A stretch of DNA of 64,000 nucleotides from Tubulanus polymorphus (lineage: Eukaryota; Nemertea; Palaeonemertea; Tubulaniformes; Tubulanidae). The stretch covers positions 17,109,307 to 17,173,306 of the forward strand of contig NC_134031.1 in the NCBI RefSeq assembly GCF_964204645.1, given 5' to 3'. Numbering within the stretch: position 1 is the first letter of the stretch; each line of letters opens with the position of its first letter. Made by a program: the position numbers and the translations under genes. The notes under the pieces were generated by a model. The model was not told the origin of the DNA. It saw nothing but the letters and a program-made list of their open reading frames with translations, and ran no database searches. Below, piece by piece: positions 15,011-58,809 of this stretch.

Positions 15011-16775
15011 ATGTCAAATCTCTCAGGAATATTTATGATTTCGTTGATAAGCCTCTTTCATCATAAAGGTAAGTTTAAAGTTCTATTTCTAAACAAGCCA
15101 AATTATCATCCAGAATCCAGAATACAATCTATGGAAATCATTCACAATCAATGGTCATTAACGGTGGTTCAGTTAAGAAGGTTCAGACCACGACTTGTCT
15201 TAGAAAGTGTGTAATTATTTGTTTTATCTAAATTTCTTCATAAAGAAATCGCATCGTTAACCGACGAGGAACGTTGTACGGAAGATTTAACGTCGAGACC
15301 TAGGAATGTTTTGGCCAGGCCAGTTTTGAACCAAAGTGATACCGTTGAACTTAAAATGATGTTTGGTCTCGTTCAAATCATCGAAGTCGTAAGCTAAAAA
15401 TCTACTTAGATATCCTAATTAAATCGAACTATATTTTCTGTCAAATCCATTCGCTAATCAATCTTTTAGAACGAACGAAAGCAAGCTATCACACTAGGAT
15501 CCTACGTAGGAATGGTACGTTGAAAGTGCTTATTCGAACTTCTCTACTGAAAATGCAAAGGGGTCAGAATAATCTAAACATAGAAACCCAACTAACGCCA
15601 GATGTAAATAGTTAAGAGTTCTTGATGATTTCAGAGTTGGACAGATAGAACGTTAACGTGGAATGCTTCTTACTATGGCGGTGTCAAAACTGTGCATATG
15701 TTCTTAAAGGATATTTGGTATCCGGATGTAGTTGTTAGACTCGGGTATGACAGTGATATTGATGAGTGTCAACTAATGATTTATTTTCACCTTACAATAC
15801 ATCCAGATTTGGACGATGATATAATTTCAGAATTCCAATGGCGATTAGTTTACGAGACAGCGATGAAAACACCAGAGTTGTCGCCCATTGCAATGGAACG
15901 GTATTTTGGTGTCCTGCATTTCGGCTGAGTATGAGTACATCCTTTGACATGACGTATTTTCCTTTCGATTCTCACAACGTCACTGTTGAGTTTGAAAGTT
16001 GGACTTATAGCGCAGAAGAACTGAAGATGGTCGCCATGTACGATCAAGTGGAAACATCTTTGTTTGTCGCTAGTGAAGAATGGAAGCTTGTTAAGACGTA
16101 CACATACGAGACCGCATTAGCCATTTTTCCCTATCCGCGATGGGGAAGGTTTAGAGCGACATTTCTGATCAGCAGGAAGCCGGCTTATTACGTGATAAAC
16201 ATCGTCATACCACTGATCGCATTTTCCTTGCTGACTCAGATGGTTTTCTTATTGCCACCGGAATCAGGAGAGAAATTATCGTTAAGCGTAACAGTTCTCG
16301 TCACGTGTTCCGTTTTTCACTTGCTTCTCGCCGATCTGATACCCAGAACATCGAACCCACCGATTATAGGTATTTTGTTTAGCAATTCGTTCAAATGGAT
16401 CTCTCATTTACCGGCTCATTAGGTACAGCACGGATTCATGCATATAATCAGACAATTTATTTTATCTTCATTTCAGTTATCTATATTACATTCATGCTGA
16501 TGATGCTGATTTTATCGGTCATTCTCTCCGTCTGCGTTATACGCATTTCCTTCCGGAACAACTATCCCGTCCCTGATTGGTTGCGAAAGTTCGTTGACGT
16601 CATCAGTCGTAAAGCCGAAGATTCCACTGCACCGATGACGATGACCCATTCACGAAACGACGGCCGAGTCTGGATGCGTGTCGCAAAAACTTTGGACAGA
16701 TTAATGTTTATCATATATCTTGGCATCACTTGTTTAGTCACCATTTGCTGTTTCGGAGCATTGATGGTAAAATAG
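15011..16775 (+). CDS. nAChR-like pentameric channel subunit lacking the Cys-loop, gene 1, copy 1
   Basis: Six exons: 15011-15068 (signal peptide), 15246-15388, 15470-15514, 15635-15744, 15831-16369, 16477-16775, giving 397 aa. The order is N-terminal helix (ERCTEDL), loop D (SWTDRTLTWNAS), loop A (IWYPDVVVRLG), loop B (SWTYS, W176), then M1 (about 238-260), M2 (266-288), M3 (299-322) and M4 (372-396), with a short M3-M4 loop of about 50 residues. The positions of the two Cys-loop cysteines are T155 and V169; FPFD (162-165) is kept. There is no vicinal Cys pair in loop C, so it is a non-alpha type. M2 has E266 (-1'), V276 (9') and D287 (20'); a cation pore is predicted. N-glycosylation sequons fall at N140 and N168. 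Two extra cysteines (C139, C146) flank the first sequon, where copy 2 has Ser at 139. Ligand unknown. Confidence 0.88.
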
Positions 16776-17650
16776 ATATTGCAGGGAGTAAAACTGGCTC
16801 AATCGTAACTAATCAAAGATTTCAGTTCAATCCTTTTTCGAGTAGAGATAATTCCCAGAATTTTCATGAAATTCCCATCTTCCATCGAGGTAAAGCTTCC
16901 GCGATTGGAGCGGATGGAACATTAAAAATTACGATACACCAGCGTTCTTAACTTGCACTGTTCGGCTATGTAAACAGTAATCAATTAAAAGCTTTAAAGT
17001 AGGTCTACTTGTCACATCTCACTAAAGCCATATCTACATAAACACTCTCGAAAGAGATGAACTCAGGTAAAATGTATTTCGATGAAAGGGTTGATAGTCA
17101 AATCTTATTCATACATTCTCGTATTTTCTGTTTGACCTAAATCGCCCGGTAATACGTTCTTTTCAGTTTGTTAAAATCTCTACCAAAAATCCTATGATGT
17201 GTTTATTTGTAATTATTTTTACGAATAATCTTGTCTTTATTGATATCTATATTCGATCGTGCGTATTTTGAGAAAATTTGTCGATGGAAAATACATGAAA
17301 AAGCAAGGCACTAGAGCAAATTGGATTCACGTACAATCTGTTGATTTGTTAGTTATTTATTAATGATCTGTATAACATTCGTTGTTTTAACCTTATGAAT
17401 TATGTTTGTACGAGTCTCAGAGGACTCGTTTGAATTCTTGCTTGTCTCTCTTAATTGTGTGCGTCTGTCGTTGTCTATAATCCACTCGGTCAGAACATGA
17501 TTGCCGCGGATAATAGAGATGGTTTTGAACGTTGCAAAGGAATCCATCGTCCATACTCTATTTAAATGAAAATATTGTGGTATCGCGTGTTTGTATCAAA
17601 TATTGATTTAGTGTGATGAAATGAGAGTGTAGCAGAAATATATCTTTTAA
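16776..17650. other. Spacer between channel genes 1 and 2, copy 1
   Basis: No coding exon. The part from about 17160 to 17540 is a diverged copy of the region upstream of gene 1 (about 14450-14830), for example ATTCGTTGTTTTA in both. Promoter-side sequence was therefore duplicated along with the genes. The copy-2 equivalent is 44856-45730. Confidence 0.55.
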
Positions 17651-17665
17651 TGTCCACCATCCTTG
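17651..17665 (+). promoter_or_regulatory. Proximal promoter-like block of channel gene 2, copy 1
   Basis: TGTCCACCATCCTTG lies 99 bp before the ATG. An AT-rich AAATATATC about 15 bp upstream could serve as a TATA-like box. The same arrangement precedes gene 3. Confidence 0.4.
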
Positions 17666-17749
17666 ATCCGACGTCCCTGTAAGTCATAAGTGTAGTTGCC
17701 ATTAGTCACCAGTAGCCAGCAGACGTTAAATCAGAATCATCCAATCACC

Positions 17750-19508
17750 ATGTCAAATCTCTCAGGAATATTTGTGATTTTATGGATTGGTCTCTTTCAT
17801 AAAGGTACGTAAGTTTTAGAGTTATTTCTGAGCAGGCCAAGTTAATCATCCAGAAAATTTCGTTATGGCGAAATCAACCAAAATCAATGATCATTAACGG
17901 GGGTACAACACGACTTGTCTTAAAAATGTGTGATTATATGTTTCACCTGATTTTTTTTATTATTAAGGAATTGCATCGTTAACCGACGAGGAACGTTGTA
18001 CGGAAGATTTAATGTCGAGACCTAGGAATGTTTTGGCCAGACCAGTTTTAAACCAAAGCGATACCTTTGAACTCAAAATGATGTTTGGTCTTGTTCAAAT
18101 CATTGATGTAGTAAGCTAGAAATCTACTCGAATATGATACTTATCTACTTACATTTTGCTATTTTCATTTCATCTGCTAATCAATCTTTCAGAACGAACG
18201 AATGCAAGCTATTACGCTGGGATCCTACGTAGGAATGGTACGTTGGAAATCCTTATTCGCGCCCTTTATTCCAAATGCGAAGGAAGCCAGAACAATCAGT
18301 ACAAATCAAAAACCAAATGCTTTGTTGATAGTTAGGAGTTCTTGCTATTTTCAGAATTGGACAGATAGAACGTTTAAGTGGAATGCTTCCGACTATGGCG
18401 GTGTCAATACGGTGCATATGTTCTTAAAGGATGTTTGGTATCCGGATGTAGTTGTAAGACTCGGGTATGACACAGTGATATTGATGAATGTTTAACTGAT
18501 GATGTATTTTCACCTAATCATACATCGCATTTATGACGATAGTATATAATTTCAGAATTCCAATGGCGATTAGTTTACGAAACAGCGATGAAAGCGCAAG
18601 AGTTGTCGTTTATTCCAACGGTACAGTATTTTGGTATCCTGGACTTCAGCTCAGTATGAGTACATCCTTTGACATGACGTATTTTCCTTTCGATTCTCAC
18701 AACGTCACAGTTGAGTTTGAAAGTTGGACTTATTGCGCAGACGAACTTAAGATGGTCGCCATGTACGATCGAGTGGAAACATCTTTGTTCGTCGCCAGTC
18801 AAGAATGGAAACTTGTTAAGACGTACACATACGGGACAGAATTAGACATACCCCCTTATGCCCGATGGAGTAGGTTTAGAGCGACATTTCTGATCAGCAG
18901 GAAGCCGGCTTATTACGTGATAAACATCGTCATACCGCTGATCGCATTTTCCTTGCTGACTCAGATGGTTTTCTTATTGCCACCGGAATCAGGAGAGAAA
19001 ATATCGTTAAGCGTTACAGTTCTCGTCACGTGTTCCGTTTTTCACTTGATTCTCGCCGATCTGATACCCAGAACATCGAACCCACCGATTTTAGGTATTT
19101 TGTTAGCAATTCGTTCAAATGGATCTCTCAATTACCCGTTATCAAGCTCATTAGGTACAGCAAGGATTCGTGCATGTTACCTAACAATTTTATCGTTCTT
19201 TTTTTCCAGTTATCTATATTACATTTATGCTGATGATGCTGATTTTGTCGGTCATTCTCTCCGTCTGCGTTATACGCATTTCCTTCCGGAAAGACTACCC
19301 CGTCCCTGATTGGTTGCGAAAGTTCGTCGACGTCATCAGTCGTAAAGCCGAAGATTCCACTACACCGATGACGATGACCCATTCACGAAACGACGGCCGA
19401 GTCTGGATGCGTGTCGCGAAAACTTTGGACAGATTAATGTTTATCATTTATCTTGGCGTCACTTGTTTAGTCACCATTTGCTGTTTCGGAGCATTGATGG
19501 TAAAATAG
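17750..19508 (+). CDS. nAChR-like pentameric channel subunit lacking the Cys-loop, gene 2, copy 1
   Basis: Six exons: 17750-17804, 17968-18110, 18193-18237, 18355-18464, 18556-19094, 19210-19508, giving 396 aa. Exon lengths 2-6 (143, 45, 110, 539, 299) equal those of gene 1. Loop D reads NWTDRTFKWNAS here, while copy 2 has LTW, a change of two adjacent residues. The Cys-loop cysteines are replaced by Thr154 and Val168. M2 keeps Glu -1', Val 9', His 15' and Asp 20'. A possible AATAAA lies at 19667-19672, about 160 bp past the stop. It differs from gene 1 mainly in loop C (GTELDIPPYARW) and in SerTrp-to-AsnTrp in loop D. Probably a co-assembling subunit with its neighbours; that is inference. 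Confidence 0.88.
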
Positions 19509-19783
19509 ATATTGCGGGGAGTTAAACTGGTTCAATCGTAATGAAATCGTAGACAATGACAGTGACGAGAGACGAGTGTGTGTCTCATCCCCGTCGTTGT
19601 CTATAATGTACCTGCCCGGGTTAAACATCATTACTGCCGTTGATGGAGATAGTGTCGACCATTACAAATAAAACATATCATATCTACTCTATTCAAATGA
19701 ACTGTTGATGGTATTGCGTGTTTGTATCAAATATTAGTTTAATGTGATGAAATGAGCGTACGTGGCAGAAATATAACTTTTAA

Positions 19784-19798
19784 TGTCCACCGTCCTTG
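19784..19798 (+). promoter_or_regulatory. Proximal promoter-like block of channel gene 3, copy 1
   Basis: TGTCCACCGTCCTTG lies 102 bp before the ATG, preceded by AAATATAAC as in gene 2. About 170 bp further upstream is the distal block shared with gene 1 (19614-19662). Confidence 0.4.
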
Positions 19799-19885
19799 AT
19801 CCGACGTTCATGCGGGTCATGGTTTATAGTTGCCATTAGTCACCAGTAAATACATCAGACGTTAAATCAGAACCATCCAATCACC

Positions 19886-21715
19886 ATGTTAAATCTTTCG
19901 GGAATATTTGTGATTTCGTTGATTGGTCTCTTTCATAAAGGTACTAAAGGTAAGTTTTAGATTTATTTCTAAACAGGCCAAGTTATATAATACAGAAAAT
20001 CTTTTTATGGAAATCATCCACAATCACTGGTCATTAAACGGGTGTTCAGATAAATGGTTTATCACGACTTGTCTTAGAAAGTGTGTAATTATTTGTTTTA
20101 TCTGATTTTCGTGATCAAGGAATTGCATCGTTAACCGACGAGGAACGTTGTACGGAAGATTTAACGTCGAGACCTAGGAATGTTTTGGCCAGACCAGTTT
20201 TAAACCAAAGCGATGCCGTTGAGCTCAATATGATTTTTGGTCTTGTTCAAATCATCGAAGTCGTAAGCTAAAAATCCACTAAAATATCCTATTTAGATCT
20301 GCTTACATTTTCTTTTGTCAATTTCATTTTTCAATGTTTTAGAACGAACGAAAGCAAGCTATTACACTGGGATCCTACGTAGGACTGGTACGTTGAGAAT
20401 CCTTATTTGAACTTCTTAATACTGAAAGTGCAAAGGGGTCAGAATAATCTAAACATAGAAACCCAACTAACGCCAGACGTAAATAGTTAAGAATTATTGG
20501 TGATTTCAGAGTTGGACAGATAGAACGTTAACGTGGAATGCTTCCGACTATGGCGGTGTCAAAACTGTGCATATGTTCTTAAAGGATATTTGGTATCCGG
20601 ATATTGTTGTTAAACTCGGGTAAGTCACAGTGATATTGACGAATGTTAAACCGATGATTTATTATCGTCCAAAAAATATCATCTTGTTTTTTGACGATGT
20701 TAAATTTCAGAATTCCAAAGATGATCAGTTTACGAGACAACGATGAAAGCACAAAAGTTATCGTTTATTTCAATGGAACGTTATTTTGGTATCCTGCAGT
20801 TCGGCTCAGTATGAGTACACCCTTTGATATGACGTATTTTCCTTTCGATTCTCACAACGTCACAGTTGAGTTTGAAAGTTGGACTTATAGCGCAGAAGAA
20901 CTTAAGATGGTCGCCATGTACGATCGAGTGGAAACATCTTTGTTCGTTGCCAGTCAAGAATGGAATCTTGTTAAGACGTACGCATACGTGGCTGAATTTA
21001 ACATACCCTCTTATCCTCGATTGGGTAGGTTTAGAGCGACATTTCTGATCAGCAGGAAGCCGGCTTATTACGTGATAAACATCGTCATACCGCTGATCGC
21101 ATTTTCCTTGCTGACGCAGATGGTTTTCTTATTGCCACCGGAATCAGGAGAGAAAATATCGTTAAGCGTAACAGTTCTCGTCACGTGTTCCGTTTTTCAC
21201 TTGCTTCTCGCCGATCTGATACCCAGAACATCGAAACCGCCGATTATAGGTATTTGATTAAGCAATTCGTTCGAATGGATCTCTCAATTACCCGTTATTC
21301 AGTATTCAGCTCTTTTGTTACACACGGCAAAAATTCGAGCATATCATCACACAATTTTATCTTATTCTTTATTTCAGTTATCTATATTACATTTATGCTG
21401 ATGATGCTGATTTTGTCGGTCATTCTCTCCGTCTGCGTTATACGCATTTCCTTCCGGAACGACTATCCCGTCCCTGATTGGTTGCGAAAGTTAGTTGACG
21501 TCATCGGTCGGAATTCCGCCGCTCGCGAGGCTCAAGGTGAAGTTCATGCAGCAGCCAAAGACTCTACTGCACCGATGACGATGACCCATGCACGAAACGA
21601 CGGCCAAGCCTGGATGCGTGTCGCAAAAATGTTGGACAGATTGATGTTCATCATTTATCTTGGCGCAACTTGTTTAGTCACTGCTTGCTGTTTCATAGCA
21701 TTGATGGTAAAATAG
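19886..21715 (+). CDS. nAChR-like pentameric channel subunit lacking the Cys-loop, gene 3, copy 1
   Basis: Six exons: 19886-19949, 20120-20262, 20343-20387, 20510-20619, 20711-21249, 21378-21715, giving 412 aa. Exon 1 offers two in-phase donors nine bases apart (after 19940 or 19949), each following AAAG; the second has the stronger GTAAGT. Exon 6 is 39 nt longer than in genes 1 and 2, adding 13 Ala/Glu-rich residues (around SAAREAQGEVHAA) to the M3-M4 loop. The Cys-loop cysteines are again absent (Thr and Val), FPFD is kept, 9' is Val, and -1' Glu and 20' Asp are present. Loop C reads VAEFNIPSYPRL, without cysteines. The N-x-T at the second lost cysteine is kept. Confidence 0.88.
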
Positions 21716-40023: not shown

Positions 40024-40493
40024 ATATTTCCAGCTTGATTTACAAATCTGGACTCCAAACCCACGACGGCCTGCGTGAGTTGAGCAATAAGATTGTAATG
40101 ATTGCTGGATGATTTTGTGCAGTATGACTACGAGTTGAGACTGAAAGAGCGGCGGGAGCGTGAAAGCGAACGGAAATGTCAACCTGTTAAATGGATGTGA
40201 ATTCTCTCTTTGGACTCGTTATTTGAGCGGAGGGAAACAAGTTTGGAATGTAACCAGTTTCTGTAGAGTCGAATTGGGGCCTCAATTCGATTTTCTACTG
40301 TGGAACTGAGGGATGGTATATCTTATATGTCAGTTTGTTTTAGGGTTTTTGATGACGTGAATGTTCTGTTCGTAGTGACCCCGGTCTGTAAAAATTAACT
40401 GTTAGAATGTGTAAAAACAACGACAAACGCTTTAATTCAGAATCGAGTGTATGAATGTGGATTCTGGGCACTGTCCAGCAGGATCTGAGTGTA
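40024..40493 (+). mobile_element. Repeat family body with a single satellite-like monomer, copy 2
   Basis: Counterpart of 13852-14325. It is cut at its right end, just after GATCTGAGTGTA, by the 1.9-kb insertion at 40494. Confidence 0.65.
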
Positions 40494-40988
40494 GGCATCA
40501 GACCACAATTAGGTTAGTAGCTCGAAGATGCGTAGGGCCGGACCCCAAAAATAGTACCTAGAGTGAAGAAGAGGTCCCCCATAAATGTTGCCATAATTTC
40601 TGCAAATGGGATAGGTAACGAATTTCGGTTATATGTATGAAATCCATTGATCCTGAGAGACAGATCGATGATGAAATAAGGGATTCCCTGGACTTTTTTT
40701 GCTTGGAGTAAGGGTACCAAACACGGTGGGGGATTCCCTTAGATATTTGGCTCGGATGTACTGGCATACCTGTACTGGGATACCCCTCCTTTCTAAAGGT
40801 TTGATTATTTCAAAAGTTAGGTTGGGTACGTGGGGCGAAAACCACTTCAATGCGTAGCTAAGATGCTGGCCTATGAGCCATAAGCAGGATTTCCCCTGAA
40901 TTTACGCGCTTATATATGAACTAAACTCTCGAATTTCTTGTTTTTACTATAGGATATAGAAGATTTTGGAATAGTGGTCTGAGCTCTG
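40494..40988 (+). repeat. Left terminal direct repeat of the 1.9-kb element
   Basis: It starts GGCATCAGACCAC and ends GTGGTCTGAGCTCTG. TCAGACCAC (40498-40506) and GTGGTCTGA (40974-40982) form a 9-bp perfect inverted repeat just inside its ends. Confidence 0.9.
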
Positions 40989-42403
40989 ACAGCCAATACA
41001 GCCAAAATAACAAATTTTGAAGTTTTGATGAAATTTCACAAATAATTTTTATCTTATACATCTTTTGCACATATAAGTCGTCTTGAGGCATTCATTGAGA
41101 CCTAATTCGCTGATTTTAATCAGTTTCATGGTAGGATTTGGTAATATTTTTGCTTGTAGAAGGCTAGAATCGCAGATTTCGGTCAATTTTTAGGCATGAA
41201 CCGTAAGATATTTTCTCGTAGGAGGCTCGGTCTAGGCTCATAAATTTATTTCATAAAGGCCATCCTTGCCTATGCAGAATAATCACATTAATTCAGCTTT
41301 CTTTGATTAAGTTATCTAGTTTGGCTGACTTTTTGGTGCCAGATACTGTCAGGAATTTAAGGGGTAGGGGAAATGCATATTTTCGTTGAAACCATGGCAA
41401 CCGAAAGGACATTGTCAGAGGCCAGTTGTGATATTTTTCCTAACTAGTACTGGTGACAACTACGCTTGGTATATGAAATTCGTCCCGGCCGAAGGCCTGT
41501 GGACGCAGTAGGGTGCATTCGAATTAGGCCTTCAGCGCAAGAAAACGCCAAATCTAAAGGTTTCAGCCCATTCGATGATGAAAATGGCATTTTTTTCAAA
41601 AAATGCTTAAAGATTGTGTTTCTGATTTTTATCCATAGCCATATATTTATATCCATCAGTGAAAAAAATCGATCAAGTATTCAGAAAATGTTGTATAATT
41701 GTTTTATTCATATTTTGAAATGAATGTTTGACTTAGATGATATTGATAGAAAACTTGGATTTTGTCGCATACGCGCGATTTGTGCATTAGCATGTATTTC
41801 CATGTGTAATTGGCCGAGAGCTATCGTATTGCGTTGTATAACTAGGGTGTCTCCACTCTTTCTAAAACTGTACAAAAACTAATGCTATTCTTAAGTTTGG
41901 GTACTAGTCAGGCATCAGACCACAATTAGGTTAGTAGCTCGAAGATGCGTAGGGCCGGACCCCAAAAATAGTACCTAGAGTGAAGAAGAGGTCCCCCATA
42001 AATGTTGCCATAATTTCTGCAAATGGGATAGGTAACGAATTTCGGTTATATGTATGAAATCCATTGATCCTGAGAGACAGATCGATGATGAAATAAGGGA
42101 TTCCCTGGACTTTTTTTGCTTGGAGTAAGGGTACCAAACACGGTGGGGGATTCCCTTAGATATTTGGCTCGGATGTACTGGCATACCTGTACTGGGATAC
42201 CCCTCCTTTCTAAAGGTTTGATTATTTCAAAAGTTAGGTTGGGTACGTGGGGCGAAAACCACTTCAATGCGTAGCTAAGATGCTGGCCTATGAGCCATAA
42301 GCAGGATTTCCCCTGAATTTACGCGCTTATATATGAACTAAACTCTCGAATTTCTTGTTTTTACTATAGGATATAGAAGATTTTGGAATAGTGGTCTGAG
42401 CTC
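40494..42403. mobile_element. 1.9-kb element with 495-bp direct terminal repeats (LTR-like), copy 2 only
   Basis: Copy 1 has the empty site (GAGTGTACGAAAG, about 14317-14329). In copy 2 the same flanks are split by 1,910 bp, with TGTA repeated on both sides as a likely 4-bp target duplication. The two 495-bp terminal repeats appear identical by eye. The interior of about 920 bp (40989-41910) has no transposase, integrase or reverse transcriptase frame and no clear primer-binding site or polypurine tract. The best reading is a non-autonomous, recently inserted LTR-type (TRIM/LARD-like) element. The termini do not read TG...CA, so an unusual class is possible. Confidence 0.75.
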
Positions 42404-42405
42404 TG
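41911..42405 (+). repeat. Right terminal direct repeat of the 1.9-kb element
   Basis: It is offset from the left repeat by exactly 1,417 bp along its whole length, with no indel and no substitution noticed. The last two bases overlap the candidate TGTA target duplication. Confidence 0.9.
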
Positions 42406-43095: not shown

Positions 43096-44855
43096 ATGTC
43101 AAATCTCTCAGGAATATTTATGATTTCGTTGATAAGCCTCTTTCATCTTAAAGGTAAGTTTAAAGTTCTATTTCTAAACAAGCCAAATTATCATCCAGAA
43201 TCCAATCTATGAAAATCATTCACAATCAATGGTCATTAACGGTGGTTCAGTTAAGAAGGTTCAGACCACGACTTGTCTTAGAAAGTGTGTAATTATTTGT
43301 TTTATCTAAATTTCTTCATAAAGAAATCGCATCGTTAACCGACGAGGAACGTTGTACGGAAGATTTAACGTCGAGACCTAGGAATGTTTTGGCCAGGCCA
43401 GTTGTGAACCAAAGTGATACCGTTGAACTTAAAATGATGTTTGGTCTCGTTCAAATCATCGAAGTCGTAAGCTAAAAATCTACTTAGATATCCTAATTAA
43501 ATCGAACTATATTTTCTGTCAAATCCATTCGCTAATCAATCTTTTAGAACGAACGAAAGCAAGCTATTGCACTAGGATCCTACGTAGGAATGGTACGTTG
43601 AAAGTGCTTATTCGAACTTCTTTACAGAAAATGCAAAGGAGTCAGAATAATCTATCTGAGCATAGAAACCGAACTAACGCCGGACGTAAATAATTAAGAG
43701 TTCTTGATGATTTCAGAGTTGGACAGATAGAACGTTAACGTGGAATGCTTCCGACTATGGCGGTGTCAAAACTGTGCATATGTTCTTAAAGGATATTTGG
43801 TATCCGGATGTAGTTGTAAGACTCGGGTATGACACAGTGATATTGATGAGTGTCAACTAATGATGTTTTCTCGCCTTACAATTTGGACGATGATATAATT
43901 TCAGAATTCCAATGGCGATTAGTTTACGAGACAGCGATGAAAACACCAGAGTTGTCGCCCATTCTAATGGAACGGTATTTTGGTGTCCTGCATTCCGGCT
44001 CAGTATGAGTACATCCTTTGACATGACGTATTTTCCTTTCGATTCTCACAACGTCACTGTTGAGTTTGAAAGTTGGACTTATAGCGCAGAAGAACTGAAG
44101 ATGGTCGCCATGTACGATCAAGTGGAAACATCTTTGTTCGTCGCTAGTGAAGAATGGAAGCTTGTTAAGACGTACACATACGAAACCGCATTAGCCATTT
44201 TTCCTTATCCCCGATGGGGTAGGTTTAGAGCGACATTTCTGATCAGCAGGAAGCCGGCTTATTATGTGATAAACATCGTCATACCGCTGATCGCATTTTC
44301 CTTGCTGACTCAGATGGTTTTCTTATTGCCACCGGAATCAGGAGAGAAAATATCGTTAAGCGTAACAGTTCTCGTCACGTGTTCCGTTTTTCACTTGCTT
44401 CTCGCCGATCTGATACCCAGAACATCGAACCAACCGATTATAGGTATTTTGTTAGCAATTCGTTCAAATGGATCTCTCATTTACCCGTTATCAAGCTCAT
44501 TAGGCACAGCACGGTTTCATGCATATAATCAGACAATTTGATTTTCTTCATTTCAGTTATCTATATTACATTCATGCTGATGATGCTGATTTTGTCGGTC
44601 ATTCTCTCCGTCTGCGTTATACGCATTTCCTTCCGGAACGACTATCCCATCCCTGATTGGTTGCGAAAGTTCGTTGACGTCATCAGTCGTAAAGCCGAAG
44701 ATTCCACTGCACCGATGACGATGACCCATTCACGAAACGACGACCGAGTCTGGATGCGTGTCGCAAAAACTTTGGACAGATTAATGTTTATCATTTATCT
44801 TGGCATCACTTGTTTAGTCACCATTTGCTGTTTCGGAGCATTGATGGTAAAATAG
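43096..44855 (+). CDS. nAChR-like pentameric channel subunit lacking the Cys-loop, gene 1, copy 2
   Basis: Exons 43096-43153, 43324-43466, 43548-43592, 43717-43826, 43905-44443, 44557-44855, with all boundaries and phases as in 15011-16775 (397 aa). Changes seen include His to Leu in the signal peptide, Cys to Ser at 139, Leu to Ile at M2 1', Asn to Asp and Val to Ile before WLRKF, and Gly to Asp near M4. Both Cys-loop cysteines are absent and 9' is Val. The single Cys146 near loop E has no partner here. Confidence 0.88.
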
Positions 44856-45829
44856 ATATTGCGGGGAGTTAAACTGGTTCAATCGTAACTAATCAAAGAT
44901 TTCAGTTCAATGCTTTTTCGAGTAAAGATGATTCCCAGAATTTTCATGAAATTCCCATCTTCCATCGAGGTAAAGCTTCCGCGATCGGAGCGAATGGAAC
45001 ATTAAAAATTACGATACACCAGCGTTCTTAACTTGCACTGTTCGGCTATGTAAACAGTAATCAATTAAAAGCTTTATAGTAGGTCTACTTGTCACATCTC
45101 ACTAAAGCCATATCTACATAAACACTCTCGAAAGAGATGAACTCAGGTAAAATGTATTTCGATGAAAGGGTTGATAGTAAAATCTTATTCATACATTCTC
45201 GTATTTTCTGTTTGACCTAAATCGCCCGGTAATACGTTCTTTTCAGTCTGTTAAAATCTCTACCAAAAATCCTATGATGTGTTTATTTGTAATTATTTTT
45301 ACGAATAATGTTGTCTTTATCGATATCTATATTCGATCGTGCGTATTTTGAGAAAATTTGTCGATGGAAAATACATGAAAAAGCAAGGCACTAGAGCAAA
45401 TTGGATTCACGTACAATCTGTTGATTTGTTAGTTATTTATTAATGATCTGTATAACATTCGTTGTTTTAACCATATGAATTATGTTTGTACGAGTCTCAG
45501 AGGACTCGTTTGAATTCTTGCTTGTCTCTCTTAATTGTGTGCGTCTGTCGTTGTCTATAATCCACTCGGTCAGAACATGATTGCCGCGGATACTAGAGAT
45601 GGTTTTGAACGTTGCAAAGGAATCCATCGTCCATACTCTATTTAAATGAAAATATTGTGGTATCGCGTGTTTGTATCAAATATTGATTTAGTGTGATGAA
45701 ATGAGAGTGTAGCAGAAATATATTTTTTAATGTCCACCATCCTTGATCCGACGTCCCTGTAAGTCATAAGTGTAGTTGCCATTAGTCACCAGTAGCCTGC
45801 AGACGTTAAATCAGAATCATCCAATCACC

Positions 45830-47586
45830 ATGTCAAATCTCTCAGGAATATTTGTGATTTTATGGATTGGTCTCTTTCATAAAGGTACGTAAGTTTTAGA
45901 GTTATTTCTGAGCAGGCCGAGTTAATCATCCAGAATATTTCGTTATGGCGAAATCAACCAAAATCAATGATCATTAACGGGGGTACAACACGACTTGTCT
46001 TAAAAATGTCTGATTATATGTTTCACCTGATTTTTTTTATTATTAAGGAATTGCATCGTTAACCGACGAGGAACGTTGTACGGAAGATTTAATGTCGAGA
46101 CCTAGGAATGTTTTGGCCAGACCAGTTTTAAACCAAAGCGATACCTTTGAACTCAAAATGATGTTTGGTCTTGTTCAAATCATTGATGTAGTAAGCTAGA
46201 AATCTACTCGAATATGATACTTATCTACTTAAATTTCGCTATTTTCATTTCATCTGCTAATCAATCTTTCAGAACGAACGAATGCAAGCTATTACGCTGG
46301 GATCCTACGTAGGAATGGTACGTTGGAAATCCTTATTCGCGCCCTTTATTCCAAATGCGAAGGAAGCCAGAACAATCAGTACAAATCAAAAACCAAATGC
46401 TTTGTTGATAGTTAGGAGTTCTTGCTATTTTCAGAATTGGACAGATAGAACGTTAACGTGGAATGCTTCCGACTATGGCGGTGTCAATACGGTGCATATG
46501 TTTTTAAAGGATGTTTGGTATCCGGATGTAGTTGTAAGACTCGGGTATGACAGTGATATTGATGAATGTTTAACTGATGATGTATTTTCATCTAATCATA
46601 CATCGCATTTATGACGATAGTATATAATTTCAGAATTCCAATGGCGATTAGTTTACGAAACAGCGATGAAAGCGCAAGAGTTGTCGTTTATTCCAACGGT
46701 ACAGTATTTTGGTATCCTGGACTTCAGCTCAGTATCAGTACATCCTTTGACATGACGTATTTTCCTTTCGATTGTCACAACGTCACAGTTGAGTTTGAAA
46801 GTTGGACTTATTGCGCAGACGAACTTAAGATGGTCGCCATGTACGATCGAGTGGAAACATCTTTGTTCGTCGCCAGTCAAGAATGGAAACTTGTTAAGAC
46901 GTACACATACGGGACAGAATTAGACATACCCCCTTATGCCCGATGGAGTAGGTTTAGAGCGACATTTCTGATCAGCAGGAAGCCGGCTTATTACGTGATA
47001 AACATCGTCATACCGCTGATCGCATTTTCCTTGCTGACTCAGATGGTTTTCTTATTGCCACCGGAATCAGGAGAGAAAATATCGTTAAGCGTTACAGTTC
47101 TCGTCACGTGTTCCGTTTTTCACTTGATTCTCGCCGATCTGATACCCAGAACATCGAACCCGCCGATTTTAGGTATTTTGTTAGCAATCCGTTCAAATGG
47201 ATCTCTCATTTACCCGTTATCAAGCTCGTTATGTACAGCAAGGATTCGTGCATGTTACCTAACAATTTTATCGTTCTTTTTTTCCAGTTATCTATATTAC
47301 ATTTATGCTGATGATGCTGATTTTGTCGGTCATTCTCTCCGTCTGCGTTATACGCATTTCCTTCCGGAAAGACTACCCCGTCCCTGATTGGTTGCGAAAG
47401 TTCGTCGACGTCATCAGTCGTAAAGCCGAAGATTCCACTACACCGATGACGATGACCCATTCACGAAACGACGGCCGAGTCTGGATGCGTGTCGCGAAAA
47501 CTTTGGACAGATTAATGTTTATCATTTATCTTGGCGTCACTTGTTTAGTCACCATTTGCTGTTTCGGAGCATTGATGGTAAAATAG
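45830..47586 (+). CDS. nAChR-like pentameric channel subunit lacking the Cys-loop, gene 2, copy 2
   Basis: Exons 45830-45884, 46048-46190, 46273-46317, 46435-46544, 46634-47172, 47288-47586 (396 aa), matching 17750-19508. The loop D segment reads LTWNAS as in genes 1 and 3. A Ser-to-Cys change gives FPFDCHNV (residue 165), an unpaired cysteine three residues before the position of the second Cys-loop cysteine. Met to Ile occurs just before the first lost position. Upstream block TGTCCACCATCCTTG is at 45731-45745. Confidence 0.88.
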
Positions 47587-47963
47587 ATATTGCGGGGAGT
47601 TAAACTGGTTCAATCGTAATGAAATCGTAGACAATGACAGTGACGAGAGACGAGTGTGTGTCTCATCCCCGTCGTTGTCTATAATGTACCCGCCCGGGTT
47701 AAACATCATTACTGCCGTTGATGGAGATAGTGTCGACCATTACAAATAAAACATATCATATCTACTCTATTCAAATGAACTGTTGATGGTATTGCGTGTT
47801 TGTATCAAATATTAGTTTAATGTGATGAAATGAGCGTACGTGGCAGAAATATAACTTTTAATGTCCACCGTCCTTGATCCGACGTTCATGCGGGTCATGG
47901 CTTATAGTTGCCATTAGTCACCAGTAACTACATCAGGCGTTAAATCAGAACCATCCAATCACC

Positions 47964-49793
47964 ATGTTAAATCTTTCGGGAATATTTGTGATTTCGTTGA
48001 TTGGTCTCTTTCATAAAGGTACTAAAGGTAAGTTTTAGATTTATTTCTAAACAGGCCAAGTTATATAATACAGAAAATCTTTTTATGGAAATCATCCACA
48101 ATCACTGGTCATTAAACGGGTGTTCAGATAAATGGTTTATCACGACTTGTCTTAGAAAGTGTGTAATTATTTGTTTTATCTGATTTTCGTGATCAAGGAA
48201 TTGCATCGTTAACCGACGAGGAACGTTGTACGGAAGATTTAACGTCGAGACCTAGGAATGTTTTGGCCAGACCAGTTTTAAACCAAAGCGATGCCGTTGA
48301 GCTCAATATGATTTTTGGTCTTGTTCAAATCATCGAAGTCGTAAGCTAGAAATCCACTAAAATATCCTATTTAAATCTGCTTACATTTTCTTTTGTCAAT
48401 TTCATTTTTCAATGTTTTAGAACGAACGAAAGCAAGCTATTACACTGGGATCCTACGTAGGACTGGTACGTTGAGAATCCTTATTTGAACTTCTTAATAC
48501 TGAAAGTGCAAAGGGGTCAGAATAATCTAAACATAGAAACCCAACTAACGCCAGACGTAAATAGTTAAGAATTATTGGTGATTTCAGAGTTGGACAGATA
48601 GAACGTTAACGTGGAATGCTTCCGACTATGGCGGTGTCAAAACTGTGCATATGTTCTTAAAGGATATTTGGTATCCGGATATTGTTGTTAAACTCGGGTA
48701 AGTCACAGTGATATTGACGAATGTTAAACCGATGATTTATTATCGTCCAAAAAATATCATCTTGTTTTTTGACGATGTTAAATTTCAGAATTCCAAAGAT
48801 GATCAGTTTACGAGACAACGATGAAAGCACAAAAGTTATCGTTTATTTCAATGGAACGTTATTTTGGTATCCTGCAGTTCGGCTCAGTATGAGTACACCC
48901 TTTGATATGACGTATTTTCCTTTCGATTCTCACAACGTCACAGTTGAGTTTGAAAGTTGGACTTATAGCGCAGAAGAACTTAAGATGGTCGCCATGTACG
49001 ATCGAGTGGAAACATCTTTGTTCGTTGCCAGTCAAGAATGGAATCTTGTTAAGACGTACGCATACGTGGCTGAATTTAACATACCCTCTTATCCTCGATT
49101 GGGTAGGTTTAGAGCGAAATTTCTGATCAGCAGGAAGCCGGCTTATTATGTGATAAACATCGTCATACCGCTGATCGCATTTTCCTTGCTGACGCAGATG
49201 GTTTTCTTATTGCCACCGGAATCCGGAGAGAAAATATCGTTAAGCGTAACAGTTCTCGTCACGTGTTCCGTTTTTCACTTGCTTCTCGCCGATCTGATAC
49301 CCAGAACATCGAAACCGCCGATTATAGGTATTTGATTAAGCAATTCGTTCGAATGGATCTCTCAATTACCCGTTATTCAGTATTCAGCTCTTTTGTTACA
49401 CACGGCAAAAATTCGAGCATATCATCACACAATTTTATCTTATTCTTTATTTCAGTTATCTATATTACATTTATGCTGATGATGCTGATTTTGTCGGTCA
49501 TTATCTCCGTCTGCGTTATACGCATTTCCTTCCGGAACGACTATCCCGTCCCTGATTGGTTGCGAAAGTTAGTTGACGTCATCGGTCGGAATTCCGCCGC
49601 TCGCGAGGCTCAAGGTGAAGTTCATGCAGCAGCCAAAGACTCTACTGCACCGATGACGATGACCCATGCACGAAACGACGGCCAAGCCTGGATGCGTGTC
49701 GCAAAAATGTTGGACAGATTGATGTTCATCATTTATCTTGGCGCAACTTGTTTAGTCACTGCTTGCTGTTTCATAGCATTGATGGTAAAATAG
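47964..49793 (+). CDS. nAChR-like pentameric channel subunit lacking the Cys-loop, gene 3, copy 2
   Basis: Exons 47964-48027, 48198-48340, 48421-48465, 48588-48697, 48789-49327, 49456-49793 (412 aa), matching 19886-21715, including the tandem donor and the 13-residue insertion in the M3-M4 loop. A Thr-to-Lys change just before M1 (FRAKFLIS) and Leu to Ile in M3 are specific to this copy. Upstream block TGTCCACCGTCCTTG is at 47862-47876. Confidence 0.88.
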
Positions 49794-50442: not shown

Positions 50443-50967
50443 TTAAGTGGCGGGTGTTGAGTAGCAGCATTTCGATCTGACAGTAGCCACGAATCCGGCA
50501 ACGATAGCTATGATGACACTACTTACGAGGTTCAAAATGTAAGCTGGACTATAATGTATACTAAAAGCAAATGACACTACAGACATTATCGAAGCCAATA
50601 CGAGCGAAAGTATTCCCATAACCGTTACTGCGATGAGCAGCCATTTCTTCGGATTCTTCGCCGCGTAGAAAGCTACGATTCCCGTTCCGATGAAAAGCGG
50701 TCCTCCCCAGAATCCGTAATGAAACGAAGTCCATTCGGACACGAAAAATCTGACGAACGCGCTCAGGAACAGAAGACAGCCGAACACGATGAGCGGGAAC
50801 GAACACGATTTAAGTCGCCCTAATCTCATTCCGGGAGGTGGGAACTGCTCCTCGACAGGTGGTACTACGATAGCTACGGTGTGGCCGGTCTTCCCGCGAG
50901 CTGGCGGCCCGTATTGCCCTCTGGGTTCAGGCGGCCGGCGCACTGGTCGATATTTTTTCTTAGGCAT
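50443..50967 (-). CDS. MS4A/CD20-like four-span membrane protein, 174 aa
   Basis: I start at MPKKKYRPVRR because TATCGTATAG, a plausible splice acceptor, ends one base upstream of that ATG. The frame continues 11 codons further but would then run through the acceptor. The N-terminus is basic and proline-rich (cytosolic). Four hydrophobic spans lie at about 57-76, 85-103, 109-137 and 143-163, and the short tail RSKCCYSTPAT has paired cysteines that could be palmitoylated. The FHYGFWGGPLFIGTGIVAFY segment across the second span fits the conserved WGG...F..G core of MS4A/CD20-like proteins. In vertebrates these act in cell-surface signalling, Ca2+ entry and chemosensing; the role here is not known. 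It is convergent with channel gene 3 of copy 2. Confidence 0.7.
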   Translation of the reverse strand: MPKKKYRPVRRPPEPRGQYGPPARGKTGHTVAIVVPPVEEQFPPPGMRLGRLKSCSFPLIVFGCLLFLSAFVRFFVSEWTSFHYGFWGGPLFIGTGIVAFYAAKNPKKWLLIAVTVMGILSLVLASIMSVVSFAFSIHYSPAYILNLVSSVIIAIVAGFVATVRSKCCYSTPAT

Positions 50968-53483
50968 CCTATACGATAGAATGGAAATAAGAATTTTCAA
51001 AGGAAATACGTCGATTATTCATTCATTTGTTCAATACATAATAAAAGAAATGTTTTTACCTTTCTTTGATTTTAGTCACAGAATTTAGTCGGTGTGAAAA
51101 TGACAGATTCCTGTATTGCAGACGCCTATGTATGAAATTCTAACCCTGGTAATATAGGTCTATGCATTAAATTCAAATGTACCAGATTGCAATGTGTTGC
51201 ATAAATTCGCACCAATTTTTAAACTTTATTTTGACATCACTATTCATGATATATATATATATATACAAGCTTTGAATTCATCAGTCAACAACGTTGCTGT
51301 ACCAGAAGGACGCTATTGATTCTGTCATTATATGGAGGATAAAAAAGTATATATATAAATATCGAAACTACAATGCTAGACTTAATGGATTGGCGTATAT
51401 CATACTTAAAATCAATTGAATTCAAAATCACAGCACATAGTGTTACGCCATTAATTGGGCCTGATAGCTGTAAAATACAGGTAATGCATAGTAGATGAAA
51501 AATATAGAGGAAACACAAGACAAGATTGTAGTTTCAAATCCCAAAATCCGGATCGAAGTATAAGAGATGAAAAGTATGGAGATTGAAGTTTCAAATACCA
51601 AAATCCGGAACGTAGTTAACGTCGTGATAAAACGCAACATATTGAAAATAATGTTTGTCCCAACGTTTCTAGTCTATGTGCATATCCCTGGTGACGGATA
51701 CTGGAAAAACGTTTCTTTCAAAATATTTGGTTTATCATTTACAAAGCAAGATCTTCCATCGCATCGCATACGAAAAAAAAACGATATTCCAATTCTGATT
51801 GCTTTTATCTGGATCACGGAGTTCTAGATTAGATTTCTATCCAAATTGAACAGCAGCAGAAAAAAGAATGGAAGAAGTACTGTATCTATGTATAACGTAC
51901 GGTATATATTTCAACAAATGAATATATATATTTTAAGTAGAACATTTATCCATAATTCATAGACGGTGTGTATTGCAAATATATAGGAGATGAGGATTGG
52001 ATTCAAATAAATCATATTTACAAAGAATATATTCGTATATACGACATGCTATTTACATAAATTAGGTTTTTTTTTCAAAAATGATTTGACATCATTGAGC
52101 TAAATGATTTGACATACAAACTTATACAATGATATTTCTGAATATTGTATAAGACCTTTGGTGTCAGTCATACTCGAAGCCATGAGTAAGACTGAGGTTC
52201 TTCTTTCCACCTTTTTGTGTAATGCAAAGAATTGCAACCTTTCCCTGATCACTATAAGTCATTCCGTGAGATTAAGCCGAATTCTATTCGTTATATTTTG
52301 ATTTATGGTGAATTTATGAATACAGAGCAAAGCCTGAAAAATTCTATACATATATTTCAAATGTTTTTTGTCAGAACACTCAATAGCTCCTTTTGAGTTT
52401 ACATAATGTTCAGAATTCATTCATTTTGTTTCATCCAACGAGTTCGGACTATTGTTTTGTGAACTTTGACGGGGAGGCATTTGAATGGAATTCATGTATT
52501 TTTCGTGTTGTTAATGTTCCTACAATAACACGAATTATCAAGGTTAAAAACTCAACGACGTAAAAAGCGACTATAAACCCAGCTGAGTTACCCCCTTTGA
52601 CCTATCTGAAGATAATGTAATGACGTTGTAAACATTGAGTAAAGGCACAGCGGGCAAGATACAAATCAAGATTCAGTGTAATTGTATCATTAAATGATTT
52701 GTATAAAACCATTAGTGAAAAATAGCTTTTTCAGTGGAGCGTTAAATAAGTAATTTGCTTTAGAAATATTCTCGAACATCGAAAAGAATATTTTGAAATG
52801 ACGATTTGCAAAAAAAAATCAATTGGTGCATCAAATAGTAGAATTGTCATTTTTGGTCATTTGATGAATTTGCGATTTCTCAGAATATGCAAAAAAGAAT
52901 ATATGTTTTGTAACAGAATGGTTGTTTTCATCGAAATTCCCCGGAATTACTGAAACGTTTCGAGTACGGTAGTTCACGGCAGGCGGCGGCGGGTGGCACG
53001 CGTTTCTGAAGCGTTAAAACGAGCATGATTCGATTCTATAAAACTATTAATCTTTGTCAAATATTCATTCGACGATAAACTAATAAACAATGTAATATAT
53101 TACATTAGAATATGGATGCCAATATGGCGGGTTCATAATTCACTACTACGTATATGTACATATAGACTCAACTGAGTTCATAAACCTGTTTGCAATTATA
53201 AGGGATTGGTTTTTAGTATAGTAGTTGGTATAAACAACACGATCGAAATTGTTTGAAAAAATTGGTAGAATATATTCATTCAATTGATATCGTAGTTTAA
53301 TTTATGTACAGGCTAGGTTGGTGTAAGGCTATGTACAGTTATCACAGATTTGCTAGTTTCTAATCCGGTTAAGTGACAATAAAAATAATAATGTAGTAGT
53401 CTATTTCTAATGCACAAACAAATACTTTTCAATCATTGAAATATGAAATTGATCCAGGAATGATTAAGACAAAATCAATTGTG
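50968..53483. other. AT-rich non-coding stretch between two minus-strand genes
   Basis: This should include the 5' part of the MS4A-like gene and the 3' UTR of the large gene starting at 57902. A minus-strand ATTAAA variant signal lies at 53296-53301 and an AATAAA at 51225-51230. A short (AT)n run is at about 51248-51265. No exon is recognisable. Confidence 0.5.
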
Positions 53484-56400
53484 TCAATCGTGAGGGGGCG
53501 AAGACGAATAGATTCCGTTTGAAACAGGTGGATGTTGACCTTTGATGGGACCTTTTTGTACGCTGTTACGTCGTTTAAAACGCAACAGTTTACGAAACTC
53601 GGAGAAGACCGTGTCCTGGTGATGTATCGTTTTGAAAACGTCCAAACACTTCTGACGAAGTCCCTCGTCGTCGGACTGATAATCCTCCTCCTCGAACAGT
53701 CGTGACATCATTTGCTCGAATTCGACAGGTTCGTCGACTGTGCGGGCAGTATCTTCGCCGTCGGTGGTGTCGTAACGAGGTTTACTGGTAGAACCGGCGG
53801 CGTTGTAGCGAGGAGTTGTACCGTCCGATAGATACCCGCCCTCCTCAGTCGCAGTGTCTTCTAAATCGCCGAAATGATCGCTAGATCGAAACACGTCGCT
53901 ATACGTCGAGTTTAATCGATCGGGTCGTATAGATCCGTTGAAACCGGAATCGAAACTGCTCGTACTTTCCAACTGACCGCTTTTCATCATTCTAGGTGAT
54001 AAAAACTCGGATTCACTGAATGTCCTATCATTAGCAGTAGGCTGAGATAATGAGGCGCGAAGCTTCGGCGCAGTTGAGCTCTGGTAAGGCTGGAACGAAG
54101 CCGCGGAACGCGGAGTCAAAGGCGGAACTCGTTTCACTGCTGTAGGTGCAACTGACGTCAGCGTCAACGGTGATGGCAGTTTCTCCGGCTTATCATCGGG
54201 CGTATCAAACTCCAACGGAGATCTATAACTTCGGAACGGAGATGGAGGCTTAGTGTCTGATAACTTAGCTTCTGCTCTGCCGGCAGGCGAAGGCCTTCGT
54301 TCGGATTTCGACGATGGAGGCGTCATCCTGGAAATAAATTGTGCATCGTCAGTTCTCCCTGTATCGATATTTACGTCCGTGCTAGATGATAACCAAAGCG
54401 GTGGTATTAAAAGCGGTGAAGATCGGTTCGATGACGTTTTACGATTACCAGGTTCGTTTGATATCCGCGATTGCGGCGAAGTTTCCGGATTTCGTTGTCG
54501 CTGCTGCTGTTGATGTTGCTGTCTCTCGCGGGCGTCTTTCTCGTCGCGTGATACGTACGATTTGAAGACCGCAGCCGTCGCGGCTGGTGCGGATGATTTT
54601 CTACTAACGCTACTATTATTTCTTCTATCAACTGTCGGTGACGCAGAAGAAGTTTTAAGCGAGTGTTCAGGTGCTGATATACGTCTATAAGGTGCTACAT
54701 AATAATCTACATCTACTGACAGCCCACCGGAGGATGATGGTGCTACTGAGTTACCATCCTCCTCCAGTGGGCCTTGCAAGTTTTTTGAATGTGTTTCGTT
54801 TGATACTTGCGTTTTTAATGGCGACGACTGTTCCGCCGTCGCCATTTCCTGCACTTGATGTTTCGTTTTTAAAATCCAATCTTCCCCGGTGAATTTTGCA
54901 ATACGTTTTTTCGACTTCGACTCGGCGATGTCTAACTGGTCGATATCGTCTGCTAGAGTATCGAACGCATTTTCGAATCCCTCGTGTTTAACGGGCAAAC
55001 TTGTTTTCGCGCTAGGTGATGGACTTAGCACTTTCGATCCGTACGTAGATGCACCGACGTCAGGCCGGTATTCGTCGGCCGATGATCTTTTAGCTCTGTT
55101 CTCCGTTTCACCGCGGCTATTTCTCTGATCACGAGCGTTCACCGGACCCGAAGTTGGATGCGCCTCTTGTCTGTGGTTTCTCAGTTTGGACACGTCTGGT
55201 TGTTGATTGGGTGTCATTTTGCGGAGACCGCGGAATACAGGCGGAGACGCCCTCGCTTCGGGAGATTGTAGTTGAGCGACCTCCCTCAGTTCCAAAGAGG
55301 ATCGATTACTACTACCGCCATCCCCAGAACCGCTGCTTGTCTTTCTACCTGTAACCGAACGAATGAATTCACTATCGTCGAATTCACTATAGTCCGGTTG
55401 AGGTGGACGTGAATGCATTCCATTGCGCCGCGTTCTCATTTGCGGCGACGACGTCATCACATCGGAGCTGGCATCGCTGATCGAAGACTCGTTGCTCCTC
55501 GGTTTAGATTTAGACATGTTCGTGTCCGGAAACACGAACACCCTTGACTCGTCGGACGTGGCCGATAGTGATTCGTCGTGGCTGTCCAAACTCTGATTAC
55601 TACCGCGTATAAATCCCGCGTGTCCTCTGTGCATACATCCCAGACCTTCGATAGACTCGCCGCGTAATGCCTTCTGAAACTGTAACCCGTCTAGTTGATC
55701 TATCACGTTACTGTGAGACCTTTCAATCGGCGTGCACGTTTCTACATCAGGCGGCGGTGCTAGTTGTCTTTTCGTTTTGCCGTAAAACTGTTTGTAAAAA
55801 TCGACGGTACTCGTTTTGCGGGTTGTTCTCGGCGATCTCGGTGGCCCTTCGGCGACGGATATCGCCCTCCTGGCAGGCGACATGGGAACATCATCCGGAG
55901 ATTTCGGGTACTCACCTCCGCTGATTTTACGCATGATGTGGAACGATTTCGCTCGTATTTTCGGAGAATTTGGCAAACTTCTCGTCATTAATGGCGACGA
56001 CGATACCATATAACCGGCGTTCTGTGAAAACTCGTTAATCTCCTTATCGATAAGCGCTTCATTTTCATCCGTATACGGTAAAATCCCGATCGGTTGGAAT
56101 ACCTGACTGGAGGTACTAGCGGATCGGCCGTTTGCATCTTCAGCATCGACTACTATCACTTCCATATATTTCAGCTGTTCGCCATCTTTAAGGTCTATAC
56201 CGATCGCATGCGGGTCGATGTTAGCCAAATCTTCCGGTTCGCTGAAAATGATTTCCGCTTTGCTCTTGCCACGTGGGTCGACGTCGACAGTTTCGTGGTG
56301 TAGTTTCTCAGCTCTGCCGTCGAAATTGCTCATTTTCGTCTTAATCGTCGGAGTTGGCCTCTCTTCGTTAACGAAAACATCGTCGTCACCGCCGCATTGC

Positions 56401-57902: not shown

Positions 57903-58809
57903 TTTGTACCAGTTTATGGATGATCACCACATCTAAAACGACCAAAAAAAACAAACATTCACTGGTGACCAGAATTCGGTGAGATTGATTTGGATATTAT
58001 CAACTTGACCTCGATTCCCAAAATGTTGATGGCCTAATGAACCATTGGCTGAATAGTTTTTTTTTATTTTGAAGTCGCGCATAATTTCGTTCTTGGGAAA
58101 TTAATCGTTTTAGATCGTATGTCTGCATATTTCCCAGTACACACAGCGGGTATTGTATGTCTGTGCGAAATGAACTACAAAGCCTTTCTTTCTGTGCAAT
58201 AAAAAACCGCTGTTAAATATCGCACTGAAATAGATACGTTAAACTGTAAACTATATGGAAAGGACCGGTCTTGCTTTTGTTAACTATTTGACAAAAACAC
58301 TGTCGCTTGATACTTAATGTTTATAGGAATGGCATATATTTCCCATTGTATAATTTTGGTAATTGAAAAGACGGCATTATCTTCAGCATAAATCCAAAAA
58401 TGTTTGAAGGCTGATCATAATTCGAATTATTTATATTTACGTCACTGAAAAGAATAATTTTACCTACGCGAAGTCAAACGTATCGTGAGCATAACAAACG
58501 CAATCGAGTCGCCGAATAATCTATCAAAGTCACAATCTCACTACAGCCATTGGAGAGACCGAATCGTGACATACCGACGCAAAAAAACTACTTTGCCATT
58601 ATTTACTGCGCTATAAAGTATCTTAATGTGCAGGTTTTATATTCGATTCTCACAAGAAGGAATTTATTTTCCGGTAGTTACAATATGCGAATAATTCGGA
58701 AAAAATATAACATTAACGCGCACGACTTTTTTAACCCCATTTATTTTAGTCGTTAAAAGTAGATTTACTTTTTGTCTGCTTCGATCTGGCGTTGATTTCT
58801 TTATTGTAA

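Follow-up and report, generated by a model that had tools for sequence, protein, structure and literature searches.

The window analysed here is a stretch of 64,000 bases (contig C7, positions 17109307-17173306, of a genome of 268 Mb in 77 contigs) carrying six genes, g1 to g6, for predicted subunits of pentameric ligand-gated ion channels (pLGICs) that lack the disulfide of the Cys-loop. All six lie on the forward strand and share a six-exon plan with GT-AG introns, a single terminal stop and no internal stop, exon 1 being a model prediction. The first gene, g1 (15011-16775), would encode 397 amino acids from a spliced open reading frame (ORF), with exons modelled at 15011-15068, 15246-15388, 15470-15514, 15635-15744, 15831-16369 and 16477-16775. 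Exon 5 (15831-16369) comprises loops E, B, F and C, the Pro-loop and the membrane spans M1 and M2, and it holds both former cysteine positions, occupied by Thr155 (codon ACA, 15937-15939) and Val169 (codon GTC, 15979-15981), as read directly. The same residues were found in g2 (17750-19508, 396 amino acids, T154/V168) and g3 (19886-21715, 412 amino acids, T157/V171), as well as in the counterparts of the three genes in a second unit: g4 (43096-44855, 397 amino acids, T155/V169, 97.5% amino acid identity to g1), g5 (45830-47586, 396 amino acids, T154/V168, 99.0% identity to g2) and g6 (47964-49793, 412 amino acids, T157/V171, 99.5% identity to g3).

Membership in the pLGIC (Pro-loop) superfamily was supported by the domains of g1 (PF02931, Neur_chan_LBD, 128 bits against a cut-off of 26; PF02932, Neur_chan_memb, 69 bits against a cut-off of 28.1) and by the FPFD core (F/YPxD), which is kept in all six genes, as a preliminary description of this DNA had stated. 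The best matches of g1 in the PDB were neuronal nicotinic subunits (beta4, E 1.6e-55). The two cysteines 13 residues apart that make a Cys-loop receptor in the strict sense are absent from the six window genes and from a seventh paralogue, L003, found elsewhere in the genome. In each window gene, Thr and Val stand in their place around the intact FPFD with 13 residues between them, so that the six ORFs bear out what had been claimed from the outset, namely a substitution and not a deletion. A misjoin of exons 4 and 5, or an unannotated exon supplying the cysteines, had been named as possible sources of error. Both were excluded, as no exon boundary falls between the two g1 codons; misjoined exons cannot account for Thr/Val because both codons sit within exon 5. 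A replacement disulfide was considered as well. The cysteines within the first 236 residues are at positions 30, 139 and 146 in g1, 29 and 178 in g2, 32 only in g3, 30 and 146 in g4, 29, 165 and 178 in g5, and 32 only in g6. With one extracellular cysteine each in g3 and g6, a replacement disulfide was rejected as a conserved feature; no second extracellular cysteine is conserved, and therefore none would be available within the subunit.

We have then read the same positions across the genome. A search with the ligand-binding domain (LBD) profile listed 145 matches, and 150 of 162 candidates were scored; the genome numbers given here are lower bounds. The 59 exons taken outside the window (58 loci) were chosen by a match covering the loop. 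Of these, 54 carry Cys/Cys, one (L003) carries Thr/Val and four are atypical, bringing the loop-covering exons read in and outside the window to 65 (54 Cys/Cys, 7 Thr/Val and 4 otherwise odd). L003 (C7:15872300-15874900) lies about 1.25 Mb away and has 58% identity to g1 over residues 108-302. It combines FPFD with Thr/Val, as do the other six members; its splice sites match those of g1-g6 where exon 2 ends and throughout exons 3-6, its stop is at the matching end, and its frame is open over the exons read. The next closest homologues (C4:1381343, C1:28249788, C4:1378198 and C1:6175132, 35-44% identity) are all Cys/Cys. Judged from these sequences, the Thr/Val pair is not a matter of chance, being the same in a 58% paralogue while nearly all loop-covering exons outside the window (54/59) keep Cys/Cys. 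The coherent Cys-less subfamily proposed in the preliminary description has thus gained a member outside the window. A different kind of departure was observed in L051 (C6:9207350), a receptor-like gene without the first cysteine and without the FPFD motif, and in L055, L057 and L060 (C4:21.87-21.88 Mb), which keep two cysteines and have lost FPFD and the spacing; these four may encode soluble binding proteins or be in decay.

In pentameric channels, the ligand is bound at subunit interfaces, by loops A-C and D-F. Binding-site residues were assigned by alignment to human alpha4. The loop B Trp is kept across the group (Trp176 in g1), the loop D Trp is replaced by Tyr79, and the loop A Tyr is replaced by Arg117 (Lys in g3 and g6, Arg in L003). 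The earlier statement that the aromatics of loops A, B and D are kept is hence right for loop B and loosely so for loop D, and wrong for loop A. The vicinal cysteine pair of loop C is absent from all seven members and also from the closest Cys/Cys relatives, L004-L006, so that its loss is not tied to that of the Cys-loop cysteines. With neither this pair nor the full aromatic box of loops A, B and D, the genes differ from alpha-type nicotinic subunits. The missing pair, which the preliminary description had taken as an argument against classical acetylcholine agonism by these subunits alone, speaks against classical alpha-type acetylcholine subunits and, together with the change of the loop A Tyr to Arg/Lys, suggests that the ligand is probably not acetylcholine.

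The pore is uniform in the seven members, with GEK at -2'/-1'/0', Ser2', Thr6', Val9' and Asp20'; Val9' is also present in L004a, L005 and L006. The coupling residues are likewise unchanged, namely FPFD with its Pro, Asp165 and the pre-M1 Arg234. The preliminary description had proposed a gating coupling peculiar to this subfamily. This is not supported, the coupling residues being unchanged and the Thr/Val pair following the pattern of working prokaryotic channels, and a conventional coupling without the disulfide would be the simpler reading. Eight exon-5 positions (T155, V169, K184, Y209, Y220, L231, T277 and C278) are fixed in the seven Cys-less rows with a residue absent from 21 cationic Cys/Cys rows, a comparison that comprises only two independent Cys-less lineages (the cluster and L003).

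Phylogenetic trees were used to place the genes. The first tree had 27 rows with the cysteine columns included, and the later trees were made without these two columns. The later trees left out L019 and L023, of which one had a long branch and the other a broken M2, and kept 18 Cys/Cys cationic rows of this genome with three human ones; no rows were made from L007, L024, L025 or the remaining loci. Three of four anionic genes fetched from this genome served as outgroup, L066 being dropped because its M2 was not read through. In the anionic-rooted tree, the Cys-less rows nested in a divergent cationic group as sister to Cys/Cys L005+L006, the order being L021/L022, L004a, L004b and L005+L006 (forks 100/99, 96/92, 95/86 and 99/93). 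A clade of L004a, L004b, L005 and L006 without the Cys-less rows was rejected under this root by the approximately unbiased (AU) test (p-AU 0.035). When GLIC and ELIC were added, the cationic and Cys-less rows formed one clade (98/98), and the arrangement expected from a primary lack of the cysteines, with the Cys/Cys rows apart from the Cys-less plus prokaryotic rows, was rejected (AU p 0.014). The presence of GEK in 7/7 and this grouping with cationic receptors place the genes, by sequence, in the cationic branch, in the anionic-rooted and the GLIC/ELIC tree alike. A tree including the six window proteins had been proposed as a check in the preliminary description, and its outcome is thus a cationic clade within the receptor set used.

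The gene structure is in line with the cationic placement but is no proof of it, most rows being judged by the end of the frame. M2 and M3 are in different exons in g1-g6 and L003; in 14 of the 18 cationic Cys/Cys rows the frame likewise stops shortly behind M2, and in all three anionic genes it runs into M3.

We have also compared the constraint on different parts of the genes. The whole-gene ratio of nonsynonymous to synonymous divergence (dN/dS) among g1, g2 and g3 was 0.27-0.55, and the Pro-loop block (residues 154-178) had 0-1 nonsynonymous changes over ~61 sites between paralogues. Variable residues accumulated in the loop E and C blocks (130-153 and 205-228), which were picked after the variation was seen: 23 of 48 positions varied there, compared with 10 of 68 other extracellular exon-5 positions (p 1.1e-4) or 14 of 131 in the whole remainder of exon 5 (p 2.9e-7). 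Three control trios of Cys/Cys paralogues from this genome had no significant bias (p 0.32-0.80; 0.11-0.35). Synonymous divergence among g1-g3 was 0.05-0.08 in M1-M3 versus 0.12-0.27 in the extracellular domain, which suggests gene conversion confined to the membrane part (exons 5/6). In several pairs it was also higher in the loops, and gene conversion outside the loops may therefore explain part of the bias. The loop C/E pattern is suggestive of ligand diversification, positive selection not being proven.

We consider it rather probable that these genes encode functional, cation-selective nicotinic-type subunits whose disulfide was lost secondarily by double substitution to Thr/Val. The substitution would predate the split between at least two lineages, the cluster and L003. 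The subunits would form a pentamer, predicted to be cation-selective because of GEK. The extracellular domain would fold without any conserved intradomain disulfide, and the conserved FPFD/Asp165 and pre-M1 Arg234 would couple binding to pore opening, as in GLIC and ELIC. The Pro-loop (here the Pro and Asp165 to the pre-M1 Arg234) has been described as a core of the domain interface that is conserved whether or not the disulfide is present (PMC4795631). The divergence of the tandem paralogues, which lies mainly in loops C and E, suggests different ligands or assembly partners, possibly with a sensory or modulatory role. The fuller history, in which a loss within the animal nicotinic branch was long kept and then followed by tandem expansion with divergence in ligand loops C and E, falls in our judgement a little short of an even chance.

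That the loss is secondary seems most likely: with Cys/Cys in the anionic channels outside the cationic branch, it is the simplest history. Several results weigh against our preferred reading. An arrangement with all 21 Cys/Cys cationic rows together and the Cys-less rows outside was not rejected (AU p 0.34). Adding GLIC and ELIC shifted the Cys-less rows to the cationic base, and the Cys/Cys cationic rows then formed a clade (91/84, unstarred), in a tree that carries a warning that long branches meet and in which these two proteins are proxies for the published Cys-less clade, in place of its metazoan members. In that topology a loss takes as many steps as gaining the pair twice in parallel; such gains would require the same two positions twice. 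Any place given to the genes within the cationic clade is accordingly tentative. The M2/M3 intron is absent from four cationic rows (L013-L016), where the frame continues into M3, so the character is not universal. At the level of function, mutants of the nicotinic acetylcholine receptor (nAChR) and of the glycine receptor (GlyR) without these cysteines lose surface binding, surface expression or currents (PMC4795631), and the g2-g3 pair has a dN/dS of 0.55.

The basal position in the GLIC/ELIC-rooted tree could be read as a sign that the genes belong to an ancient Cys-less clade of animals and protists in which the cysteines were never present, as proposed for schistosome and other lophotrochozoan channels. 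Thr/Val also fits the polar/hydrophobic pattern of prokaryotes (PMC4795631), and the clade is dominated by Lophotrochozoa, the host of the present genes being probably a spiralian. Such a membership is nevertheless unlikely, given that GEK and nicotinic-type M1-M3 are found here, whereas the schistosome channels have neither GEK nor PAK (PMC9874803), that the cationic and Cys-less rows form one clade with the primary arrangement rejected, and that Cys/Cys genes come next in similarity within the genome. The disabling effect of cysteine mutations in nAChR and GlyR (PMC4795631) and the g2-g3 ratio would both be in keeping with a loss that marks relaxed constraint after tandem duplication, leaving decaying duplicates and no working channel. 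This we regard as very improbable, since the frames are open in 7/7 members over the exons read, the Pro-loop is nearly frozen, and Thr/Val is common to a 58% paralogue, from which it follows that the genes lasted long after the change. The subunits may instead be accessory, structural components that do not bind ligand and need Cys/Cys subunits such as L004-L006 in order to assemble. The absent loop C pair and the Arg/Lys of loop A, as in non-alpha subunits, are compatible with this role, and L004-L006 also lack the pair; on the other hand, diversification affects loop C, on the principal face, as well as loop E, on the complementary face. A purely accessory role thus strikes us as a serious possibility, although doubtful on balance.

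The number of genes depends on how the two units are read. A self-BLAST of the window plus 10 kb and 6 kb of flank, with inspection of the junctions, identified a 26.4 kb unit repeated head to tail at 98% identity. Copy 1 spans -4343 to 22076 (1-22076 in the window, starting 4343 bases before it) and copy 2 spans 22077-50154; the junction at 22076/22077 is exact and the outer flanks have no obvious mutual homology. The trees pair g1 with g4, g2 with g5 and g3 with g6 (the g2/g5 pair being drawn open in the first tree), and therefore the triplication preceded the duplication of the unit. The synonymous divergence (dS) is 5.9% for g1/g4 and 0.7-0.8% for the other two pairs, g2/g5 and g3/g6. The three copies mentioned in the preliminary description are hence real counterparts, but all belong to one 26.4 kb duplication and are possibly allelic. 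The gene number is three or six because a true duplication and an uncollapsed second haplotype look alike here. That only three genes exist, 43096-49793 being a second haplotype left in the assembly, comes close to a toss-up. The 98% identity across the whole 26 kb unit, intergenic DNA included, the exact head-to-tail junction, the lack of obvious homology between the outer flanks and the low dS of two pairs are all compatible with it, but a recent true tandem duplication would look identical, and the g1/g4 dS of 5.9% and the absence of any N from the 80 kb examined speak for two units in the genome. The second unit alone carries a 1.9 kb insert (about 40493-42405). Flanked by a short target duplication and bounded by two identical direct repeats of 496 bases, it looks like a young non-autonomous element of the long terminal repeat (LTR) type.

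Other features were noted in the window. Just beyond the duplicated unit, a minus-strand frame of 191 amino acids (50446-51018) has a sub-threshold match to a CD20-like family (E 1.4e-4). A further open frame of 1479 codons on the minus strand (53487-57923) has no Pfam match at E 0.001, and self-matches are dense and overlapping, of the tandem-repeat type, at 62249-63386. Elsewhere in the genome, many anionic-type receptor exons, L030-L059, mostly on contig C5, start just before the Cys-loop. The single gene compared with the PDB, L065, was closest to vertebrate glycine receptors, which suggests a glycine-receptor-like expansion. Among the first places listed for TTAGGG, arrays were seen near ends of contigs C1, C4 and C7; telomere repeats are typically TTAGG in arthropods and TTAGGC in nematodes. 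A Hox gene, L062, has AKLNGPNGK after its homeodomain, a tail that we take to be close to the spiralian Lox5 parapeptide KLTGP, and there are four homeobox matches within ~100 kb on C6. These features make a spiralian host probable. A COX1 search gave no hit in the assembly. For the annelid linker family PF16915 no match was obtained either, which is no proof of its absence.

The Cys-loop disulfide seems essential in nAChR and GlyR mutants and dispensable for the prokaryotic fold, and its conservation is partly unexplained (PMC4795631). If our preferred reading, a secondary loss in working nicotinic-type subunits, is true, these genes would be natural channels of that type without the disulfide, and their Cys/Cys relatives in the same genome would show the accompanying changes. 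The role of the disulfide could then be probed by exchanging a few residues in both directions between the two groups; the design of Cys-less mutants from natural Cys-less sequences has been postulated by Jaiteh et al. (PMC4795631). The genes would also add to the orphan lophotrochozoan nicotinic-like receptors of unknown ligand. Searches of the literature, some of them very narrow, brought up no group of animal cationic channels with a secondary loss of the cysteines, which is weak evidence of novelty as most subscription papers were not covered. Short patterns matched 68 and 121 times in IMG/VR and prokaryote genomes, neither of which holds animal genomes, and none of these matches was confirmed as a relative.

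Cys-less animal channels themselves are already known, and it is the secondary loss on the cationic side that looks to be new. The claim that they are rare in animals needs qualifying, as PMC4795631 reports them from annelids, molluscs, flatworms, nematodes, a cnidarian, an echinoderm, amphioxus and a tunicate, and PMC9874803 from schistosomes. The closest parallel is provided by the "Pro-loop receptors" of Jaiteh, Taly and Henin 2016 (PMC4795631), which are invertebrate channels without the Cys-loop cysteines and with the Pro-loop kept. The first position is polar and the second hydrophobic here, as that paper states for prokaryotes. Its main animal group, mostly lophotrochozoan, forms a clade separate from both Cys-loop clades, whereas the present genes group on the cationic side of the animal channels. 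The animal secondary losses that it reports are in the anionic clade, and in its phylogeny section only two ciliate Cys-less sequences are placed in the cationic clade (PMC4795631).

The schistosome Cys-less ligand-gated ion channels (Johnson et al. 2023, PMC9874803) are similar in forming a cysteine-free clade within a spiralian group, and their authors propose membership in the Cys-less clade of Jaiteh et al. They differ in having Glu at M2 -2' and a motif of neither GEK nor PAK type, compared with GEK and nicotinic-type M1-M3 here (PMC9874803). A loss within a Cys-loop clade is also known from the nematodes, in Dirofilaria immitis Q70GM3 and C. elegans lgc-34, but these are of anionic type and the present genes of cationic type; the D. 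immitis channel moreover keeps a second Cys-loop and has YPFE in place of FPFD (PMC4795631, PMC9874803).

Like the genes described here, Alpo4 of Alvinella pompejana and the chemotactile receptors of cephalopods, of which those of octopus and squid are mentioned in PMC10338036, are lophotrochozoan orphan nicotinic-like receptors. Alpo4 also lacks the loop C vicinal cysteines (PMC10338036), and its structure 8BX5 matched g1 at E 1.6e-37. Its loops A and D each keep an aromatic residue (Phe103 and Trp65, respectively), where the present genes have Arg/Lys and Tyr. Its authors call it a Cys-loop receptor, and no statement that the Cys-loop pair is missing was found in the portion of that paper available (PMC10338036). 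GLIC and ELIC, finally, are prokaryotic, have no GEK pore and are distant in sequence from the genes of the window, but they share a fold that is stable without the disulfide (PMC4795631) and carry Ser/Leu and Asn/Phe, respectively, at the two positions, a polar and a hydrophobic residue like the Thr/Val pair reported here.

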